Assembly: GCF_015624505.1 (NCBI RefSeq) | Contig: NZ_CP061379.1 | Coordinates: 5,394,001 to 5,458,000 of the forward strand | Direction of reading: 5' to 3' | DNA: 64,000 bases | Source of the DNA: Bradyrhizobium commune | Lineage (GTDB): Bacteria; Pseudomonadota; Alphaproteobacteria; Rhizobiales; Xanthobacteraceae | Part shown: in pieces, positions 45,941 to 55,266 of the stretch | Position numbering within the stretch: position 1 is the stretch's first letter | How the letters are laid out: the number at the start of each line of letters is the position of its first letter | Notes under the pieces: generated by a model | The model's database searches: none | The model's input: only the letters and a program-made list of their open reading frames with translations | What the model was told of the DNA's origin: nothing | Translations under genes and position numbers: made by a program

Positions 45941-47560
45941 TCAGGCGAGGTGCCGGGCCGCCGTCACGTCAACGGACGCCGCCGGCATCACCGTCTCATC
46001 ATCGAGCGCCGCAAGGCGCGCATCGATGGCGTCGATGACCTTGCGGGAGAACGGCCCAAGATGCGCATAGGCCGCGATCATCTGCACCGCGATGCGCGCC
46101 GATGAGGTGTCGCGCTTGGCGCAGTTCATGAAGGTCTGCCAGAGCGGCCCACGCGCCTCCGGAATGGCCGTGACCACCTTGTGCACGGTCTCCATCGCGC
46201 CGACCCTTGAGCGAATGTCGCCTTCGGCGAGCTCACGGCGTTGCCGCGAACGGTCGAGCAGCGCCATCAACTTGTCGACGCGGCTCGCATAGGCTTGCGG
46301 GCTGTAGACGCGCTCCAGCACCGTCTTGTAGTCCGTCAAGATATCGCGCAGCGGACGGACCGGATCGAAATTGATCCCGCCGGTGCACTGGTCGCCGCCC
46401 GTCGTCGATGCCAGATCGTGGTCAGCATGCAGCCGGCCCTCCTTGGCGAGGCGCCGCGTCAGCTGCGTGTTCGGCAACGCATAGAGCAAGCCGACCATGG
46501 CGACCGGGATGGCGGCCTCCTCGATGAAATCGATCATCGCCTCCGCCATCGAGACCTTCTCGCTGTCGAAGCCCACGATGAAGCCCGCAGTGACGAGCAT
46601 GCCGGCGCCGTAGATCTTGTGGATGCTCTCGGCAATGTTGCGCCGCGTGTTCTGCTTCTTCCGCATCGCGACCAGGGTTGCGGGATCCGGACTTTCGATG
46701 CCGACGAAGATGCCAAAGAAATTGGCCGCACCCATCAGCTCCAGAAGCTCGGAATCGTCGGCGAGATTGACCGAGGCCTCGGTGGACAATTCGAAGGGAT
46801 AGCCATGGGCACGCTGCCATTCGGCAAGCCGGGGCAGGAACTGCCGCAGCGATTTCTTGTTGCCGATGAAATTGTCGTCGACGAAGTCGAGATGACCGCG
46901 ATAGCCCATCTCATAGAGCCGCTCGAGCTCGACCAACATCTGCTCATTCGTCTTGGTGCGCGGCACGCGTCCGTACAGCTCGATGATGTCGCAGAATTCG
47001 CAGGTGAACGGACAGCCGCGCGAATATTGCACACCGAGATAGAGATAGTCCTCGAACTTGAGCAGGTCGAACCGCGGCACCGGCGTCCTGGTGACGTCGG
47101 CCTGGAATTTCGGCGCGGTGAAGACGCCGGAGCGCGCACCGCTGTCCCAGGCCGCGATGAAGTCGTCGATGACACCCTCGGCCTCACCGAGCACCTGAAA
47201 GTCGGCCCGCTCATAGATGTGGGGACTGGACGTCGGGTCGGGACCGCCGACCACCACCGGCTTGCCCGCCGCGCGGCACTTTTCGATCAGGTGCAACGTA
47301 TCGGTCTGTTGCGGCAGCATTCCGCCGGTGAAGACGACGTCGGCCCAGTCGAGATCGCCGTCACCGAAAGCTTGCGTATTGCGGTCGATCAGACGGATCG
47401 TCCAGCTCTCCGGCAACATCGCCGCGACGGTGATCAGGCCCAACGGCGCCGCGGGACGCCGCACACCCATCAGCTTGCAGGACTCGCCAAAGCTCCAGAA
47501 CGATTCCGCCGTGAACAGCGGATAGAGCATCAGCACGTTGCAGGGGCTCGGCACCGTCAT
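45941..47560 (-). CDS. B12-binding-domain radical SAM protein (DUF4070 type)
   Basis: This 539-residue enzyme has an N-terminal cobalamin-binding domain (about 1-150, with PLGLITVAAMLPESW and DVVFTGGMLPQQTDTL) and a radical SAM barrel with the [4Fe-4S] motif SRGCPFTCEFCDII near residue 190. The C-terminal DUF4070 region follows about residue 370 (YALPNTQLTRRLAKEGRLHA). The hopanoid C-2 and C-3 methylases HpnP and HpnR are DUF4070 relatives, but I cannot confirm that role because no hopanoid genes are adjacent. It starts at an ATG with AGGAGT upstream. Confidence 0.87.
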   Translation of the reverse strand: MTVPSPCNVLMLYPLFTAESFWSFGESCKLMGVRRPAAPLGLITVAAMLPESWTIRLIDRNTQAFGDGDLDWADVVFTGGMLPQQTDTLHLIEKCRAAGKPVVVGGPDPTSSPHIYERADFQVLGEAEGVIDDFIAAWDSGARSGVFTAPKFQADVTRTPVPRFDLLKFEDYLYLGVQYSRGCPFTCEFCDIIELYGRVPRTKTNEQMLVELERLYEMGYRGHLDFVDDNFIGNKKSLRQFLPRLAEWQRAHGYPFELSTEASVNLADDSELLELMGAANFFGIFVGIESPDPATLVAMRKKQNTRRNIAESIHKIYGAGMLVTAGFIVGFDSEKVSMAEAMIDFIEEAAIPVAMVGLLYALPNTQLTRRLAKEGRLHADHDLASTTGGDQCTGGINFDPVRPLRDILTDYKTVLERVYSPQAYASRVDKLMALLDRSRQRRELAEGDIRSRVGAMETVHKVVTAIPEARGPLWQTFMNCAKRDTSSARIAVQMIAAYAHLGPFSRKVIDAIDARLAALDDETVMPAASVDVTAARHLA

Positions 47561-47866
47561 GGAACTCCTTCTGCCTTGCCACAGTGTATCAAAGTGTCGT
47601 CATCTTGCACCCCGGCAAAAGGGACAAACTGTCGCTCGCCCTTGGAGTCCAGACGTCGCCGCAGGCCGCGCCATTGGCGTTCAGGGAGATGGCCCGAGCC
47701 GCCACATTCCCAACGCGCGCACAACACCGCCCGATCGATAATCTTCCCGCGACCGCGGAAATCTTCGTGGCCACCCCGCAGACTCTTGATTTGAACAGTT
47801 TCAGTTTGCCGGACACATTGCGCCCCTGAGTCCATTCGGTGGATTGGGCCAATCAGGGGACTTGCG
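47561..47866. other. 306-bp intergenic region between radical SAM and Mo-hydroxylase genes
   Basis: This gap must hold the promoters of two divergent units. I see no gene, no FixK box with correct spacing (TTGATTTGAACAG at about 47787 lacks the second half-site) and no clear repeat. AGGGGACTTGCG before the iorA-like ATG provides its ribosome site. Confidence 0.5.
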
Positions 47867-48316
47867 ATGGCAAACCTAACAATCAACGGAAAAACCTTCA
47901 CGCTCGATGTCGAGCCGGATACCCCGCTGCTCTGGGCGATCCGCGAGAATGCCGGCTTGACCGGAACCAAATATGGCTGCGGCATTGCACAATGCGGCGC
48001 CTGCACGGTTCACATGGACGGCGCCGCCACCCGCTCCTGCGGCATCTCGGTCGCCGAGGCCGCGGGCAAGAAGATCACCACGATCGAAGGGCTCGCCTCC
48101 GGCGCCACGCTGCACAAGGTGCAGGAAGCCTGGATTGCGCAAGATGTTCCGCAATGCGGCTATTGCCAGAGCGGAATGATCATGGCGGTCGCGGCGCTCC
48201 TCAACGACAACCCGAAACCGACCGACGCCGATATCGACGAGGCCATCACCAATATCTGCCGCTGCGGCACCTTCCAGCAGGTGCGCGAGGCGATCCACAC
48301 GATCGCAAGCGCGTAA
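47867..48316 (+). CDS. [2Fe-2S] subunit of a molybdenum hydroxylase (IorA/CoxS type)
   Basis: This 149-residue electron-transfer subunit binds two [2Fe-2S] clusters: the plant-ferredoxin type [15 protein letters not shown] and the helical domain CGYCQSGM...CRCGTF. It is the small partner of xanthine-dehydrogenase-family enzymes such as isoquinoline 1-oxidoreductase (IorA). It lies 12 bases before the large subunit. No FAD subunit follows, as in two-subunit IorAB-type enzymes that pass electrons to a cytochrome. Confidence 0.92.
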
Positions 48317-48328
48317 GGAGCGGCCAAC

Positions 48329-50512
48329 ATGAACAAGCACGTCTCTCCCAGGATGAATCGCCGCGCCTTCGTCATCGGCAGCGCCACGCTCGGCGCCGGC
48401 CTCGCCATCGGCCTCGACATCCCCTTCGGCGGCCCCGCCGTGGTACGCGCGGCCGACGGCTCGCCCGAAATCAATGCCTGGGTCGTGGTCAGGCCCGACG
48501 ACACCGTGGTGATCCGCATCGCGCGTTCGGAGATGGGCCAGGGCACGCTGACGGGTCTTGCCCAGCTTGTCGCCGAGGAGCTTGAGTGCGACTGGACCAA
48601 GGTCACCACCGAGTTCCCCTCGCCCGGCCAGAACGTCGCCCGCAAGCGCGTCTGGGGCGAGTACTCGACTGGCGGCAGCCGCGGCATCCGCACCTCGCAG
48701 GACTATGTGCGCAAAGGCGGCGCCACCGCGCGCGCGATGCTGATCCAGGCCGCAGCCAACGAATGGAAAGTGCCGGCCTCCGAATGCACGGCCGCCAACA
48801 GCGTCATCACCCATACGGCGTCAAGCAAGACCACGACCTATGGCAAGGTCGCCGAAGCCGCGGCCAAGCTGACGCCGCCGGCCGACGTCAAGCTGAAGGA
48901 TCCCAAGGACTGGAAGCTGATCGGCAAGGGCGTGAAGCGGCTGGACACGCCGGACAAGGTCACCGGCACCACCGTTTACGGCATCGACGTCAAGCTGCCC
49001 GGCATGCTCAACGCCGCGATCAAGGATTGCCCGGTCACCGGTGGCAAGCTGAAGAGCTACGACGAGGCCAAGATCGCCGGCGTGAAGGGCGTCAAGAAAG
49101 TGGTGAAGGTCGGCGACACCGCGGTCGCGGTCGTGGCCGATACCTTCTGGCACGCCAAGAGCGCGCTCGATGCGCTGCCGATCGTCTGGGACGAAGGCGA
49201 GAATGCAAAAGTCTCAAGCGCCTCGATTGCTAAATGGCTGTCGGAAGGCCTCGACGGCGGTCCGGCCTATGTCGGCAACTCGAATGGCGACGCCAAGGCT
49301 GCGCTCGCAGGCGCGGCGAAGACGATCGAGGCCGTCTACAGCTACCCGTACCAGAACCACGCCACCATGGAGCCGCTGAACGCCACTGCGCTCTACACCG
49401 CCGACATGTGCGAGGTCTGGTGCGGCACGCAGAATGGCGAAGCAGCCTTCGCTGCGGTCCTGGAAGCCTCGGAGTTGGCGGCCGACAAATGCGACGTGCA
49501 CAAGCTGATGCTGGGCGGCGGCTTCGGCCGGCGCGGCCAGACCGACTATGTCCGTCAGGCGGTGCTGATCGCCAAGGAGATGCCGGGCACGCCGATCAAG
49601 CTGCTATGGACGCGCGAGGAGGACATGACGCACGGCCGCTATCATCCGGTCACCCAGTGCAAGATGACGGCGGGCTTCGATGCGAACGACAATCTGACCG
49701 CGTTGCACATGCGAATCTCCGGCCAGTCGATCCTGGCCAGCCTTCGACCGGATGCCATGGTCAACGGGATGGATCCGGCGACCTTCCAGGGTCTCGCGCC
49801 CAAGGGCGATGCTTCGTTCGGCTACTCGGTGCCAAATCTCCTGATCGATCATTCGATGCGCAACCCGCATATCAACCCGGGCTTCTGGCGCGGCGTGAAC
49901 GTCAATCACAATGCGCTCTATGTCGAATGCTTCATGGATGAACTGGCTCATGCGGTGAAACAGGACCCGCTCGAGTTCCGGCGCAAGCTGATGAAGGACC
50001 ATCCGAAGAATCTCGCGGTGCTCGACGCTGTCGCGGAGAAGGTCGGATGGGGCCAGCCGGCCCCGGAGGGCGTGTATCGTGGTCTCGCTCATTTCATGGG
50101 ATTCGGCAGCTATGTTGCGGCGGCCGCCGAAATCTCGGTGACAGACGGCACCAAGATCAAGGTCCACCGCATCATCGCGGCCACCGACCCCGGTTATGCC
50201 GTCAACCCGGCGCAGATCGACCGCCAGATTGCTGGCTCCTTTGTCTACGGGCTGACGGGGCTGTTCCTTGGCGGCTGCACAGTGAAGGACGGTGCCATCG
50301 AGCAGACCAACTTCGACACCTACGATTCCATGCGTATAGCGGCGATGCCGAAAGTGGAGTCGATCGTGATGCCAAGCGGCGGCTTCTGGGGCGGTGTCGG
50401 CGAGCCGACCATCTGCGTCGCCGGACCTGCTGTGCTCAACGCCTACTTTGCGGCAACGGGCAAGCGCATCCGCGCGGTGCCGCTGCGCGACCAGAACATC
50501 ACCTTCGCTTAG
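48329..50512 (+). CDS. Molybdopterin-binding large subunit of a molybdenum hydroxylase (IorB type)
   Basis: This 727-residue protein begins with a Tat signal (MNRRAFVIGSATLGAGLAIG), so the enzyme is probably exported folded with its cofactor. The molybdenum-cofactor-binding marks include MGQGTLTGLAQLVAEELECD and GGGFGRRGQTDYVRQAV, with the C-terminal PSGGFWGGVGEP segment, where family members carry a catalytic Glu (here VGEP). It is the aldehyde-oxidoreductase-like IorB group that hydroxylates N-heterocycles or aldehydes. It is directly followed by soxF (54 bases), an unusual arrangement. The substrate is not predictable. Confidence 0.9.
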   Translation: MNKHVSPRMNRRAFVIGSATLGAGLAIGLDIPFGGPAVVRAADGSPEINAWVVVRPDDTVVIRIARSEMGQGTLTGLAQLVAEELECDWTKVTTEFPSPGQNVARKRVWGEYSTGGSRGIRTSQDYVRKGGATARAMLIQAAANEWKVPASECTAANSVITHTASSKTTTYGKVAEAAAKLTPPADVKLKDPKDWKLIGKGVKRLDTPDKVTGTTVYGIDVKLPGMLNAAIKDCPVTGGKLKSYDEAKIAGVKGVKKVVKVGDTAVAVVADTFWHAKSALDALPIVWDEGENAKVSSASIAKWLSEGLDGGPAYVGNSNGDAKAALAGAAKTIEAVYSYPYQNHATMEPLNATALYTADMCEVWCGTQNGEAAFAAVLEASELAADKCDVHKLMLGGGFGRRGQTDYVRQAVLIAKEMPGTPIKLLWTREEDMTHGRYHPVTQCKMTAGFDANDNLTALHMRISGQSILASLRPDAMVNGMDPATFQGLAPKGDASFGYSVPNLLIDHSMRNPHINPGFWRGVNVNHNALYVECFMDELAHAVKQDPLEFRRKLMKDHPKNLAVLDAVAEKVGWGQPAPEGVYRGLAHFMGFGSYVAAAAEISVTDGTKIKVHRIIAATDPGYAVNPAQIDRQIAGSFVYGLTGLFLGGCTVKDGAIEQTNFDTYDSMRIAAMPKVESIVMPSGGFWGGVGEPTICVAGPAVLNAYFAATGKRIRAVPLRDQNITFA

Positions 50513-50566
50513 AATATGCGGCGGCGGCCATTACGGCCGCCGCGGCCTTTTGCCTGGATGATCCTG

Positions 50567-51841
50567 ATGACCACGCGCCCGCTGACACGGCGGACTGCCG
50601 TGTTCGGCCTCACCGCGGCGGCCGCGACATTGGCGCGGCCACAGGTCTTGCGCGCGCAATCTTCAGGCCGTGTCGTCGTGGTCGGCGGCGGCTTCGGTGG
50701 CGCAGCGTGTGCCCGGGCGCTGAAGCGTGCACAGGACAGCTTGCAGGTCATCCTGATCGAACCCAATGCGGTTTTCACCTCCTGCCCCTTCAGCAACGAA
50801 GTGATCGCGGGCCTGCGCGACATCGAAGCGCAGCGGTTTGACTACGACAAGATCGCCGCCGAGGGCGTCACCGTGATCGGCCAGGCCGTGACCACAATCG
50901 CGCCGCAGCAGCGCAGCGTCATGACGGCCGATGGGGTTGCGCTGCCCTATGACCGCCTCGTGCTGTCACCCGGCATCGACTTCCACTTTGACGCTCTTCC
51001 CGGCTACGATGAGGCCACATCGGAAAAGATGCCGCACGCCTGGAAGGCCGGCGCGCAGACGCTGTTGCTCCGCCGGCAGCTGGAAGCGATGTCGGATGGC
51101 GGCACGGTCGCCATTGCGATCCCCGCCAATCCCTCACGTTGCCCGCCCGCGCCTTACGAGCGCGCCAGCCTGATCGCGCATTATCTGAAGACGAAGAAGC
51201 CGCGCTCGAAAGTCTTGATCCTCGATGCCAAGGACAATTTTTCGCAGCAGCGATTGTTCGAGAAGGCGTGGAAGGAACTCTACGGCGACATGATCGAGCG
51301 CGTGGCGCTGTCGCAAGGCGGCCGCGTCACCTCGGTCGATCCGTCGACGAGAACCATCATCACCGAGTTCGGCAACTATACTCCCGATGTCGCCAACGTC
51401 ATTCCGCCGCAGCGGGCCGGGCATATCGCCGAGATTGCGGGTGCAACGGATGCGACGGGCTGGTGCCCGATCGATCCCGTCAGCTTCGAGTCCAAGCTCA
51501 TTTCGAACCTCCATGTCATCGGCGACGCCTGCCTCGGCGGCGGCATTCCCAAATCGGCCTCGGCCGCGAGTGCGCAAGGCAAGGCTTGCGCGGCAGCGAT
51601 CGTCAACCTGCTCGCGGGCCGTGCGCCGGAAACACCGCGCCTGACCGGCGTCTGCTACAACACGGTCGCACCCGGTTACGGCTTTTCGCTGGCCGGCAAC
51701 TACCAGCCCAAGGGCGACATCTTCACTGAAGTGGAAGGCGGCGCGACGAGCCCGGTCGATGCGCCGCGCGAGCTGCGTGCCCGCGAGGCGGAAGAGGCGG
51801 AGCGCTGGTTTCAAACCATCACGGCGGACACCTTTGGCTAG
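50567..51841 (+). CDS. soxF: Sulfide dehydrogenase-like flavoprotein SoxF/FccB
   Basis: This 424-residue protein has a Tat signal (TTRPLTRRTAVFGLTAAAAT) and the FAD motif VVVVGGGFGGAACARALKRA. It resembles the flavin subunit of flavocytochrome c sulfide dehydrogenase, with the redox cysteine segments FTSCPFSNEVIAGL and AIPANPSRCPPAPYER, and NNAC-like DACLGGGIPKSASAA near the end. It oxidises sulfide with the cytochrome c partner. I chose the ATG at 50567 (GGATG upstream) rather than those at 50516 or 50558. It overlaps soxX at its stop. Confidence 0.87.
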   Translation: MTTRPLTRRTAVFGLTAAAATLARPQVLRAQSSGRVVVVGGGFGGAACARALKRAQDSLQVILIEPNAVFTSCPFSNEVIAGLRDIEAQRFDYDKIAAEGVTVIGQAVTTIAPQQRSVMTADGVALPYDRLVLSPGIDFHFDALPGYDEATSEKMPHAWKAGAQTLLLRRQLEAMSDGGTVAIAIPANPSRCPPAPYERASLIAHYLKTKKPRSKVLILDAKDNFSQQRLFEKAWKELYGDMIERVALSQGGRVTSVDPSTRTIITEFGNYTPDVANVIPPQRAGHIAEIAGATDATGWCPIDPVSFESKLISNLHVIGDACLGGGIPKSASAASAQGKACAAAIVNLLAGRAPETPRLTGVCYNTVAPGYGFSLAGNYQPKGDIFTEVEGGATSPVDAPRELRAREAEEAERWFQTITADTFG

Positions 51842-52286
51842 ATCATCCCTCCATACCGCAGCGCTGATCGCCGCCGGCCTTGGCTTGGCTTGCGGAGCAG
51901 GAGCTGAAGAGCTCGTGCCCTACAAAATCATCGGAGACACCATCCCCGAGCCACTCACAGGCACGCCGGGCGATCCCGCGCATGGACGCGAGTTGGTGCT
52001 GGCGCGCACGACGACCTGTATCCTCTGTCATTCCGGTCCGTTCCCGGAGGTGCGGTTCCAGGGTGACCTGGCGCCCGATCTCACCGGCACCGGGAACTGG
52101 TGGTCGGCGGGCCAGTTGCGGCTTCGGCTGGTCGATGCCTCGCGCTTCAATCCGGAGACCATCATGCCATCCTATTACCGTGATGACGGGTTCGTCCGCG
52201 TGGGACGCAATTATGTCGGCAAGCCGATCTTGTCGGCCGCAGAGATCGAGGACATCGTGGCCTATCTTGCAACGCTTCGGGACTAG
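51834..52286 (+). CDS. soxX: Sulfur-oxidation cytochrome SoxX
   Basis: This 150-residue monoheme cytochrome has a signal peptide (HTAALIAAGLGLACGAGAEE), the heme site TTCILCHSGPFPEV and the axial methionine in ETIMPSYYRDDGFVRVG. The LAPDLTGTGNWWSAGQLRLR segment is typical of SoxX. I place the start at a TTG at 51834 that overlaps the soxF stop, since the longer frame lies inside soxF. SoxX pairs with SoxA (23 kDa-type dimer) to attach thiosulfate to SoxY. Confidence 0.88.
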   Translation: MARSSLHTAALIAAGLGLACGAGAEELVPYKIIGDTIPEPLTGTPGDPAHGRELVLARTTTCILCHSGPFPEVRFQGDLAPDLTGTGNWWSAGQLRLRLVDASRFNPETIMPSYYRDDGFVRVGRNYVGKPILSAAEIEDIVAYLATLRD

Positions 52287-52294
52287 GACTGTTC

Positions 52295-52762
52295 ATGCCG
52301 ACGACACGACGACAATTCTTGGGCATCGCCGGCGGCATCACCGTCGCGGGAACGATCCCCATTGTCACGCTGCGGCCGCTGGAGGCGACGCCTGCGATGC
52401 TCAACACCGCGATCCGCAACGTCGTCGGCGAAGCGCAGTTGCGCATCGGCAAGGTCAAGATCGACATTCCGCCGCTGGTCGAGAACGGCAATACGGTGCC
52501 GATGACGGTGAGCGTCGCGAGCCCGATGACCGCTGATGATTACGTCAAGAGCATCCACGTCTTCAACGAGAAGAACCCGCAACCGAACATCGGTAATTTC
52601 TATCTGAACCCCTCCTCCGGCCGGGCCCAGATCTCGACGCGGATCCGGCTCGCCGACACCCAGAAGGTGGTCGCGATCGCCCGGCTCTCCGACGACAGCT
52701 TCTGGCAGGTCGCGACGGAGGTCGTCGTGACGCTGGCCGCCTGCACCGAGGAGGTGAACTGA
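52295..52762 (+). CDS. soxY: Sulfur-carrier protein SoxY with an unusual C-terminus
   Basis: This 155-residue protein has a Tat signal (TTRRQFLGIAGGITVAGTIP) and a SoxY fold with the segment HVFNEKNPQPNIGNFYLNPS, a SoxY hallmark, and RAQISTRIRLADTQKVVAIA. Classical SoxY ends in GGCGG, whose cysteine carries sulfur; here the tail is TLAACTEEVN with Cys150, so the flanking glycines are missing. The cysteine is still on a flexible end, so function is possible. It is translationally linked to soxZ (one-base overlap). Confidence 0.9.
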   Translation: MPTTRRQFLGIAGGITVAGTIPIVTLRPLEATPAMLNTAIRNVVGEAQLRIGKVKIDIPPLVENGNTVPMTVSVASPMTADDYVKSIHVFNEKNPQPNIGNFYLNPSSGRAQISTRIRLADTQKVVAIARLSDDSFWQVATEVVVTLAACTEEVN

Positions 52763-53079
52763 TGGCCGCCCTCATCAACGTTCCAACCAAAGCCAAACGC
52801 GGCGACGTCATCGAGATCCGCACGCTGACCTCGCACATCATGGAGACCGGCTTCCGCCGCACCATGGGCGGCGCGCTGGTGCCGCGCGACATCATCACGA
52901 CCTTTACCTGCCGCTACAACGGCACCGAGATCTTTCGCGCCGATCTGTTTCCGGCGATCGCGGCCAATCCTTATTTGTCCTTCTTCACGGTCGCGAAGGA
53001 GAGCGGCAAGTTCGAGTTCGAATGGATCGGCGACAACGGCTATTCGTCCACCGCATCGGCATCGATCACGGTCGAATGA
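52762..53079 (+). CDS. soxZ: Sulfur-carrier partner SoxZ
   Basis: This 105-residue protein has the SoxZ Ig-like fold with KRGDVIEIRTLTSHIMETGF, RRTMGGALVPRDIITTFTCR and FEFEWIGDNGYSSTASASIT near the end. SoxZ forms a heterodimer with SoxY. Its ATG overlaps the soxY stop by one base and its stop overlaps the soxA start (ATGA), so the three are tightly coupled. Confidence 0.95.
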   Translation: MAALINVPTKAKRGDVIEIRTLTSHIMETGFRRTMGGALVPRDIITTFTCRYNGTEIFRADLFPAIAANPYLSFFTVAKESGKFEFEWIGDNGYSSTASASITVE

Positions 53080-53855
53080 ATATTGGGCGCGCGATAGCCG
53101 CGGCGGCATTTCTTGCAACCGCCCCTGCCCTGTTTGCCGGCGAGATCCCGCCCGAGGCGCGCCGCTCCGGCTATTCCTTCATGGGCCTCGACACGCGCGC
53201 CATGCAGGATGACGACACGTCCAATCCTGGCATGCTGTTCGTGCTCGACGGCGAGGCGCTGTGGAGGAAGAAAACAGGCAGTGCTGACAAGGCCTGCGCG
53301 GACTGCCATGGCGATGCACGCAACAGCATGAAGGGTGTCGCGGCGCGCTATCCCGCTTTTGACAAGACGGAGGGGCGTCCCGTCACGCTCGACCAACGCA
53401 TCAACCTCTGTCGCGCCAATCACCAGCAAGCCGAGCCGCTCTCCTATGAGAGCCGAGACCTGCTGGCACTGTCCGCCTTCGTCGCGCATCAATCGCGCGG
53501 CGTCGCGATCACCGCGGGAGACGATCCGCAAGCAAAGCCTTTCGTCGAGCAGGGCCGCGCGCTGTTCATGCAGCGCGAGGGCCAGCTCAATCTCGCCTGC
53601 ACCAATTGTCATGACGACAATTTCGACAAGCGTCTCGCTGGATCGCCGATCACACAGGCACAACCGACCGGCTATCCGCTCTACCGCCTCGAGTGGCAGA
53701 CGCTGGGGTCGCTCGAGCGTCGGCTGCGAAGTTGCATGACCGGTGTCCGCGCCCAGGCCTATGACTATGGCGCACCCGAGCTGGTCGCGCTCGAGCTCTA
53801 TCTGATGTCGCGGGCGCGCGGCCTGCCAATGGAAACGCCGGCCGTGCGGCCATAA
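53076..53855 (+). CDS. soxA: Diheme sulfur-oxidation cytochrome SoxA
   Basis: This 259-residue protein has a signal peptide (AIAAAAFLATAPALFAGEIP) and two heme sites, ACADCHGDARN and ACTNCHDDNFD. The RSCMTGVRAQ segment near the end holds the cysteine that becomes the persulfide heme ligand in SoxA. The INLCRANHQQ segment is also family-typical. With SoxX it joins thiosulfate to the SoxY cysteine. The ATG overlaps the soxZ stop. No soxB, soxCD or soxVW follows in the window. Confidence 0.93.
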   Translation: MNIGRAIAAAAFLATAPALFAGEIPPEARRSGYSFMGLDTRAMQDDDTSNPGMLFVLDGEALWRKKTGSADKACADCHGDARNSMKGVAARYPAFDKTEGRPVTLDQRINLCRANHQQAEPLSYESRDLLALSAFVAHQSRGVAITAGDDPQAKPFVEQGRALFMQREGQLNLACTNCHDDNFDKRLAGSPITQAQPTGYPLYRLEWQTLGSLERRLRSCMTGVRAQAYDYGAPELVALELYLMSRARGLPMETPAVRP

Positions 53856-53940
53856 TCCGCATCCCAAGATTGGGACTAGGCACGCGCCGCGCGGACGCTA
53901 CTATCCCCTCCAAACAAAACGAGTCACAGGGAGGGATACA

Positions 53941-55266
53941 ATGGCTGACCACACCATTTCGCGCCGCACGCTTCTGAAAGGGACCGCCGCAGCCGGCGCG
54001 CTCAGCCTCACCGGGGTGCCGGCGCGCGCCGAGGTCAACTGGAAGAAATATGCAGGGACCAAGCTGGAGGTAATCCTCGCCAAGGGCCCGCGCGGCGACA
54101 ATCTGCAAAAATACGTCAAGGAGTTCACCGAGCTCACGGGCATCCAGGTCGAGTCCGAGCAGATCCCGGAGCAGCAGCAGCGCCAGAAGGTCGTGATCGA
54201 GCTGACGTCGGGACGGCCGAGCTTCGACGTCGTCCATCTCAGCTATCATGTGCAGAAGCGTCAGTTCGAGAAGGCCGGCTGGCTCGCCGACATGACGCCC
54301 TACATGAAGGACCCGACGCTGACCGCGCCCGATCTCGTCGAGAGCGACTTCTCGGCTGCCGGCCTGCAATACGCCAAGAACGACAAGGGCCAGATGCTGT
54401 CGCTGCCCTGGTCGGTCGACTATTTCATCCTCTACTACAACAAGGAGCTGTTCCAGAAGAAGGGCGTCGCGGTCCCGAAGACCCTCGATGAGATGGTCGC
54501 GGCTGCCGAGAAGCTGACCGATCCGAAGGACGGCACATTCGGCTTCGTCGGCCGCGGCCTGCGCAACGCCAACATGACGCTGTGGACCAACTTCTTCCTC
54601 AACTATGGTGGCGAATTCCTCGATGCCAAGGGCAACATCCTGACCGATGGACCGGAGGCCGTTGCTGCGACCAAGCTGTATCAGACCCTGCTGACGAAGG
54701 TCGCTCCACCGGGCGTCGCCGGCTTCAACTGGATGGAGTCGATGGCCTCGTTCACGCAGGGACGTTCGGCGATGTGGATCGACGGCGTCGGCTGGGCGCC
54801 GCCGCTCGAGGATCCCGCCGCCTCGCGCGTGGTCGGCAAGGTCGGCTACACCGTCGTGCCGGCCGGACCGAAGGGGCAGTATTCGGCCACCTATGGCGAC
54901 GGCATCGGCATTGCCGCCGCGAGTAAGAACAAGGAGGCCGCCTACCTGCTCTGCCAATGGATCGTCTCGAAGCGGCAGGGCGCGCGGCTGTTGCAGGCCG
55001 GCGGCGGCGTGCCGTTCCGCAATTCGATCCTGAACGATCCGGAGGTGCAGAGCGGCGTGAAGATGCCCAAGGAGTGGCTGCAATCGGTGATCGATTCCGG
55101 CAAGATCAGCAAGCTCGGCCTGCCCGTGGTGATCCCGGTCGCCGAATTCCGCGACATCGTCGGTGCGGCGCTGACCGCAACCCTGTCCGGCGCCGATCCT
55201 GCTACCGAGTTGAAGAAGGCCAACGACCAGTACCGGCCGATCCTGGAGCGCAGCGAAAAAGCGTGA
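53941..55266 (+). CDS. Sugar ABC transporter substrate-binding protein
   Basis: This 441-residue periplasmic protein has a Tat-type signal (ISRRTLLKGTAAAGALSLTG) and a family 1 extracellular solute-binding fold. Key segments are LELTGIQVESEQIP-like FTELTGIQVESEQIPEQQQR, LSYHVQKRQFEKAGWLADMT and LPWSVDYFILYYNKELFQKK. It is the first gene of a three-gene importer unit (two permeases follow with overlapping starts). The ATG has GGGAGGG upstream. Family members bind oligosaccharides, polyols or glycerol-phosphate-like ligands. No ATPase gene is adjacent. Confidence 0.93.
   Translation: MADHTISRRTLLKGTAAAGALSLTGVPARAEVNWKKYAGTKLEVILAKGPRGDNLQKYVKEFTELTGIQVESEQIPEQQQRQKVVIELTSGRPSFDVVHLSYHVQKRQFEKAGWLADMTPYMKDPTLTAPDLVESDFSAAGLQYAKNDKGQMLSLPWSVDYFILYYNKELFQKKGVAVPKTLDEMVAAAEKLTDPKDGTFGFVGRGLRNANMTLWTNFFLNYGGEFLDAKGNILTDGPEAVAATKLYQTLLTKVAPPGVAGFNWMESMASFTQGRSAMWIDGVGWAPPLEDPAASRVVGKVGYTVVPAGPKGQYSATYGDGIGIAAASKNKEAAYLLCQWIVSKRQGARLLQAGGGVPFRNSILNDPEVQSGVKMPKEWLQSVIDSGKISKLGLPVVIPVAEFRDIVGAALTATLSGADPATELKKANDQYRPILERSEKA

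Follow-up and report, generated by a model that had tools for sequence, protein, structure and literature searches.

A molybdenum hydroxylase-soxFXYZA gene cluster with a non-canonical SoxY arm in Bradyrhizobium commune, a candidate Sox variant independent of SoxB and SoxCD

The window analysed here is a 64,000-nucleotide stretch of the Bradyrhizobium commune genome (contig NZ_CP061379.1, positions 5,394,001 to 5,458,000), and at 47867-53855 it contains seven same-strand genes which encode the small and large subunits of a molybdenum (Mo) hydroxylase followed by SoxF, SoxX, SoxY, SoxZ and SoxA. We regard it as an even call whether these genes constitute a dedicated Sox variant, independent of SoxB and SoxCD, in which a periplasmic Mo enzyme of the xanthine oxidase family would be the catalytic partner. 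Comparison of predicted proteins and gene orders across genomes shows that the genes are co-inherited as a unit, that SoxAX and the Mo enzyme keep their expected catalytic residues, and that the SoxY cysteine is placed on a different arm. The locus is real and conserved, and it is not a canonical Sox cluster. In the accepted model, as outlined in PMC5336275, SoxAX joins thiosulfate to SoxY, SoxB removes the sulfonate and SoxCD oxidises the sulfane sulfur. The window locus resembles that system in that SoxX, SoxA and SoxZ pass their NCBIfam cut-offs and both the SoxAX motifs and the SoxY cysteine are kept, but it lacks SoxB, SoxCD and a GGCGG-arm SoxY; the arm is instead of an xAC type (typically followed by [TVIL][ED]) and the partner is a Mo hydroxylase.

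The non-canonical SoxY arm did not figure in the first-pass annotation of this DNA. The window SoxY passes TIGR04487, the NCBI family named 'SoxY-related AACIE arm protein' (219 bits, cut-off 172), and fails TIGR04488, the family of true SoxY with the GGCGG carrier arm (106 bits, cut-off 125); it ends AACTEEVN, not GGCGG, and A149 and C150 are invariant in 31 of 31 aligned sequences. Judged by its family assignment, the window SoxY is not a true thiosulfate carrier. The name of TIGR04487 shows that the carrier variant is already recognised, and the window SoxY is a member; the name covers the carrier alone, and no text linking the family to a Mo enzyme was found. Divergent SoxY arms are also known from PMC11237559, where links to dimethyl sulfoxide and tetrathionate reductases and to alcohol, methanol and formate dehydrogenases are proposed; neither 'xanthine' nor 'molybd' occurs in that text. 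A SoxYZ-type carrier recruited to another oxidoreductase has a parallel in the quinoprotein-associated SoxYZ-like carrier (TIGR04557). In that family, however, SoxY and SoxZ are fused, whereas in the window they are separate genes accompanied by SoxAX and score only 61.8 bits (SoxY) and 33.9 bits (SoxZ) against its cut-off of 140.

Across the loci compared, the type of arm matches the partner enzyme. All 45 loci with SoxY and the Mo enzyme have an [A/S/G/P]AC arm, mostly continued as [TVIL][ED], and all 11 loci with SoxY and SoxB have a GGCGG arm; SoxB and the Mo enzyme occur together in none of them. The 45 include six loci from Bradyrhizobium, the window among them, and eight with a distant Mo large subunit (27-52% identity; L137, L144, L145, L146, L147, L190, L193 and L194). 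Outside the count stand 15 SoxY loci where no partner enzyme of either kind is within reach, of which seven are GGC-type (one GGCGG), one is NGC-type, four are xAC at split or cut loci and three are armless and fusion-like. Four further named plasmid loci agree: two are SoxB-linked with GGCGG arms (L201 and L203) and two are Mo-linked with the arms PACAE and AACLE. At least two genomes, that of the window and G646 (L165 and L166), have both systems at different sites, and in each system the arm is of its own type.

Other arms were encountered along the way. The SoxY of L167 (genome G576) and of L202 (Rhizobium gallicum), where G576 belongs to the same genus, ends TNGCK or TNGCR and is accompanied by soxZ and soxF, and neither stretch matches SoxB or the Mo enzyme. 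Arms reading GGCAG or GGCVG are found in L170, L173 and L174 together with soxZ, soxF and a small cytochrome, and no soxB match is present on these stretches. In two related genomes (L145 and L147) the SoxY arm is GACVE followed by a longer tail, and a formylglycine-generating-enzyme-like protein with an FGE-sulfatase domain (L145:6945-7796 and L147:6924-7847) is encoded between soxZ and a part containing the cytochrome gene, soxF, soxX and soxA.

The first-pass annotation had proposed that the Mo and sox genes are functionally joined, and the gene order in relatives supports this strongly. Of the 80 best named relatives out of 299, 78 are labelled Bradyrhizobium. Of 80 fetched Bradyrhizobium-type loci, 74 have the complete seven-gene order and the remaining six begin where a contig ends; these gene-order counts rest on queries other than canonical SoxA. 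The median junctions are 11, 54, -8, 8, -1 and -4 bases, with a few outliers (for example -586, between the large-subunit gene and soxF) which probably stem from start-codon choice or indels. The SoxY arm reads ACTEE plus two residues in all 80, and tblastn detects SoxB in none of these loci. The flanks are variable, with a radical S-adenosylmethionine (SAM) gene in 59 of the 80 and an ATP-binding cassette (ABC) binding protein in 54. Because 74 of the 80 are complete, the other six are cut by contig ends and the outer neighbours vary, the seven-gene arrangement is, on this comparison, evidently not due to chance.

Beyond the genus we sampled 385 alphaproteobacterial genomes. TIGR04487 SoxY is over the cut-off in 21, and the Mo large subunit is found at 60% identity or more in 31, including all of those 21; the scoring covered the two best candidates per genome, the 60% limit was chosen after a gap in the identities had been seen (60%, then 51-49%, then 44% and below), and G122 and G147 enter the count through partial matches at the ends of contigs. 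In 24 of the 31 Mo genomes a single fetched stretch holds both the Mo gene and SoxY, and in two others (G093 and G071) both parts run into contig ends. Adjacent to the Mo enzyme or not, SoxYZ is present in 30 of these 31 genomes. The Mo-X-Y-Z-A order without soxF is present in four betaproteobacterial-type genomes of a single genus (L157-L160), one of which shares an identical SoxY with Polynucleobacter sp. MWH-UH2A. The cassette is also carried, with SoxF and a small-cytochrome match, by two plasmids, one from Neorhizobium galegae (conjugative) and one from Methylobacterium, and it is, from its distribution, apparently portable. A 2012 study places the SOX genes of Polynucleobacter nearer to those of Bradyrhizobium than to those of Cupriavidus (PMC3308952), and its text contains neither 'molybd' nor 'xanthine'; no description of a Mo-sox operon was found in the open-licence literature. 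It would be very surprising if the neighbourhood were accidental, or reflected shared regulation of two unrelated modules: the Mo and sox parts do stand apart in four of the 31 genomes, as such an explanation would allow, yet the same order recurs in different families, in Polynucleobacter and on plasmids.

The cluster had been described at first pass as 'without soxB or soxCD', which holds for the locus but not for the genome. The 7.62 Mb contig contains a canonical soxXYZAB cluster at 7.44 Mb, about 2 Mb from the window locus, whose SoxY ends VTVGGCGG and passes TIGR04488 (160 bits), and a soxC gene at 2.33 Mb, the only one over the cut-off in this genome, followed by a c-type cytochrome gene. 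Of the two findings that the first-pass annotation had named as speaking against a joined unit, an ordinary soxB locus with soxC elsewhere is thus present, and a non-conserved adjacency is not what we see. An accessory role in thiosulfate or sulfide oxidation, using SoxB and SoxCD made elsewhere in the genome, would suit this genome and the soxB-positive minority of Mo genomes (soxB in six of 31, soxC in five). It seems decidedly improbable all the same, as soxB and soxC are both missing from 25 of the 31 Mo genomes (class-wide searches at E up to 1e-100), the window arm differs from that of all 11 SoxB-linked SoxY proteins compared, and in B. diazoefficiens, which has two soxY genes, thiosulfate oxidation is described as needing only soxY1 of locus I (PMC5748708). 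The last result fits a different substrate for the window-type locus, if soxY2 is the AAC-arm gene. Twenty of the 25 genomes free of soxB and soxC reach 90% completeness or more and do not exceed 5% contamination. Both Bradyrhizobium genomes of the class sample (G000 and G361) are among those that are not SoxB-free. Because 25 of the 31 lack both genes, the Mo-Sox system appears to be SoxB-free genome-wide in most sampled carriers. A Bradyrhizobium soxF gene has been reported beside soxXYZABCD with no Mo enzyme (PMC10708946).

Two features of the canonical locus of the window genome may be recorded here. Its SoxA (L113:9003-9866) has CFPN at the position of the first haem motif, which is CxxCH in Mo-linked SoxA, and it looks monohaem from this motif. 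On the 3' side of soxXYZAB, a gene with metallo-beta-lactamase-type and rhodanese-type matches resembles a persulfide dioxygenase (L113:12691-13794).

The Mo enzyme has the hallmarks of the xanthine oxidase family, namely molybdenum cofactor-binding domains, a catalytic Glu and two [2Fe-2S] clusters. All eight cysteines of the small subunit are present in 44 of 44 Mo-locus rows, and Glu692 of the large subunit is kept among the compared loci. The closest solved relative of the small subunit is an aldehyde dehydrogenase small subunit (8gy3_B, 166 bits), and the large subunit shares the 8gy3 fold across 671 residues. Like the Gluconobacter enzyme 8gy3 and the IorAB-like Mo hydroxylases it consists of a small FeS subunit and a large Mo subunit; unlike them, the window pair is followed by sox genes, and 8gy3 has an electron-accepting cytochrome subunit of its own. 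The Mo enzyme scores far under the cut-off of every substrate-specific NCBIfam model scanned. The Sox cytochromes also look competent: the window locus has a SoxXA pair with haem motifs and active-site Cys, CxxCH and Met111 of SoxX are kept in 41 of 41 Mo-locus rows, and both CxxCH motifs and C220 of SoxA are kept in 44 of 45 rows, the remaining one being gapped there; the rows comprise L179 and 44 loci which have the Mo enzyme together with SoxY or are the window locus itself.

Irregular copies of the Mo genes were also seen. Mo small-large pairs are in tandem in genome G315 (L198:1-14382), with three large-subunit matches on one contig, and in the Neorhizobium galegae plasmid (L199:3710-5864) the large subunit matches as two adjacent pieces with no coding sequence in the annotation table, so that this gene may be broken or mis-sequenced.

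The loader SoxAX is intact, the arm is changed, SoxB and SoxCD are absent from the locus and a hydroxylase is present; the simplest mechanism would be hydroxylation of a tethered thiol. SoxAX would oxidatively attach a thiol or sulfane compound to SoxY at Cys150. Oxidation of the loaded substrate by the Mo enzyme would follow, most simply as hydroxylation of the carbon next to sulfur. Electrons might pass through the two [2Fe-2S] clusters to SoxX/SoxA, or to the small SoxE-like cytochrome of relatives, and SoxF, where present, could handle leftover sulfide or persulfide. That the locus thereby represents a third branch of Sox, free of SoxB and SoxCD, in which an organosulfur substrate is held on the AAC arm during its oxidation by the Mo enzyme, is a reading we put forward tentatively. 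The same carrier might hold carbon rather than sulfur chemistry, with Cys150 binding an aldehyde as a thiohemiacetal which the Mo enzyme oxidises to a thioester, sulfur being only the handle, on the model of glutathione-dependent formaldehyde oxidation. The aldehyde dehydrogenase-like Mo subunit would suit this, as would the alcohol, methanol and formate dehydrogenases adjoining other divergent SoxYZ, for which PMC11237559 proposes a role in carbon metabolism; we nevertheless consider it unlikely, since it leaves SoxAX and SoxF with no obvious role, neither being needed for thiohemiacetal formation.

Several observations weigh against a dedicated Sox variant built around a tethered substrate. 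We know of no xanthine oxidase-family enzyme that acts on a protein-tethered substrate. In G066, a single 5.44 Mb contig rated 100% complete, locus L179 consists of Mo small, Mo large, soxX and soxA, without soxF; from the stop of soxX to the start of soxA there are only about 50 bases. A profile search for SoxY finds nothing in this genome, and nor does a SoxZ search at E up to 10. Two near relatives with the same genus code (L123 and L129) have the full gene set. Because G066 holds Mo-soxX-soxA with no soxYZ, the SoxYZ carrier is not always needed, and the Mo enzyme has a closer tie to SoxAX than to SoxYZ. In four of the 31 genomes (G091, G127, G292 and G370; L180-L183) the Mo gene is located apart from the sox genes; two of these (G292 and G370) carry, in addition, a 49-51% Mo pair next to SoxYZA (L194 and L144). 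The order Mo-X-Y-Z-A occurs with no soxF in L118, L119, L121, L122, L125, L130 and L143, among others, and SoxF lies outside the conserved core. The window genome's own soxB could act in trans. Finally, the nine SoxB-linked SoxA sequences do not form one clade (approximately unbiased test, p 2e-11), and placing the Mo-linked rows on the SoxA tree takes six changes, which rejects a simple SoxA history mirroring the partner swap.

L179 is therefore the best evidence for SoxAX as the electron acceptor of the Mo enzyme, and it bears on another explanation, which we hold to be possible though doubtful. Here the Mo pair would be a conventional periplasmic dehydrogenase whose substrate, an aldehyde or N-heterocycle, is free in solution. 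SoxX and SoxA would act as the cytochrome subunit of this enzyme, and sulfur released from the substrate would be dealt with separately by SoxYZ and SoxF. The closest structure is indeed an aldehyde dehydrogenase, L179 dispenses with both SoxYZ and SoxF, and the median pairwise distances over 35 loci are 0.36-0.38 for the Mo subunits against 0.52-0.56 for the Sox proteins. Left unexplained are the SoxY arm, which changes together with the partner enzyme, and the near-constant company of SoxYZ; moreover, SoxA keeps its catalytic-type Cys, even in L179 (with both haem motifs), and mere electron transfer would not need it. The first-pass annotation had offered two roles, namely that the enzyme donates electrons to the Sox cytochromes or that it oxidises an organosulfur compound. 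Either is possible from the gene content, and the L179 gene set, Mo-soxX-soxA without soxYZ, counts in favour of electron donation.

SoxF belongs with the FCSD-domain flavoproteins of flavocytochrome c sulfide dehydrogenase, and C73, C192, C300 and C363 are present in 25 of 25 Mo-locus rows. The likeness to FccAB and SoxEF extends to a small monohaem cytochrome directly 5' of soxF in 12 of 29 loci, which in nine of the 12 lies between the Mo gene and soxF. The Bradyrhizobium locus differs in having no room for one, with no dedicated cytochrome subunit in the 54 bases 5' of the window soxF, and several distant loci have no SoxF.

The coordinates are collected in Table 1, and the Pfam and NCBIfam results are consistent with all seven names. 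The extent, common direction and tight junctions noted at first pass agree with ours: a gap of 12 bases separates the two Mo genes and one of 54 separates the large-subunit gene from soxF (stop ending at 50512, ATG at 50567), soxF and soxX overlap by 8 bases, soxX and soxY are 8 bases apart, and soxY/soxZ and soxZ/soxA overlap by 1 and 4 bases. The Tat-type leader then assigned to the IorAB-like pair is a twin-arginine leader on the large subunit, and the predicted sugar importer following soxA is a sugar-type ABC importer. As also anticipated, none of the 14 gene products scanned between about 43 and 58 kb is a flavin adenine dinucleotide (FAD) subunit, nor is any SoxB or SoxCD. On the 5' side lies a divergent B12-binding radical-SAM gene (DUF4070; 45941-47560). 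A search for outer neighbours that might recur as a substrate clue gave, besides the small cytochrome, at best a cluster in 7 of 29 loci at scattered positions, probably an ABC exporter as judged from its sequence, and so no hint of the substrate; Pfam assigns ten flanking genes to a variety of families. No promoter-like sites were found on the + strand at 47000-54500 in a scan for promoters and terminators that is uninformative for this genus and whose counts lie near those of shuffled sequence (2 against 1.1 and 6 against 5.6), and Rfam at gathering thresholds gave no match in the whole window.

Table 1. Genes of the Mo-sox locus and the SoxY carrier arm, in window coordinates.
Feature	Position	Strand	Remarks
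Mo hydroxylase small subunit	47867..48316	+	two [2Fe-2S] clusters, 8 cysteines; Pfam Fer2 and Fer2_2
Mo hydroxylase large subunit, IorB-like	48329..50512	+	xanthine oxidase family; twin-arginine leader; Glu692, GEP motif
soxF, flavocytochrome c sulfide dehydrogenase-type flavoprotein	50567..51841	+	Pfam FCSD_central and FCSD-flav_bind
soxX, monohaem c-type cytochrome	51834..52286	+	TTG start; NCBIfam TIGR04485, 69.6 bits (cut-off 61)
soxY variant, SoxY-related AACIE arm protein	52295..52762	+	NCBIfam TIGR04487
SoxY C-terminal carrier arm TLAACTEEVN	52730..52759	+	Cys150 (codon 52742-52744), expected attachment residue
soxZ	52762..53079	+	NCBIfam TIGR04490, 82.5 bits (cut-off 76)
soxA, dihaem cytochrome, catalytic-type Cys220	53076..53855	+	NCBIfam TIGR04484, 240 bits; 1h31_A, 183 bits

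Genomes with soxA, soxX, soxY and soxZ are easily read as those of thiosulfate oxidisers, and if the Mo-sox locus is a separate pathway then many plant-associated, soil and freshwater bacteria would be misread in this way. The NCBI family 'SoxY-related AACIE arm protein' would acquire a specific partner, and from the arm motif one could predict the enzyme that acts on the SoxY carrier. A separate pathway would also bring an organosulfur or aldehyde route via SoxYZ within reach of Bradyrhizobium genetics. Should oxidation of a tethered substrate prove true, this would be, to our knowledge, the first xanthine oxidase-family enzyme shown to act on a protein-bound substrate, in a branch of Sox spread through the alphaproteobacteria and freshwater Polynucleobacter.

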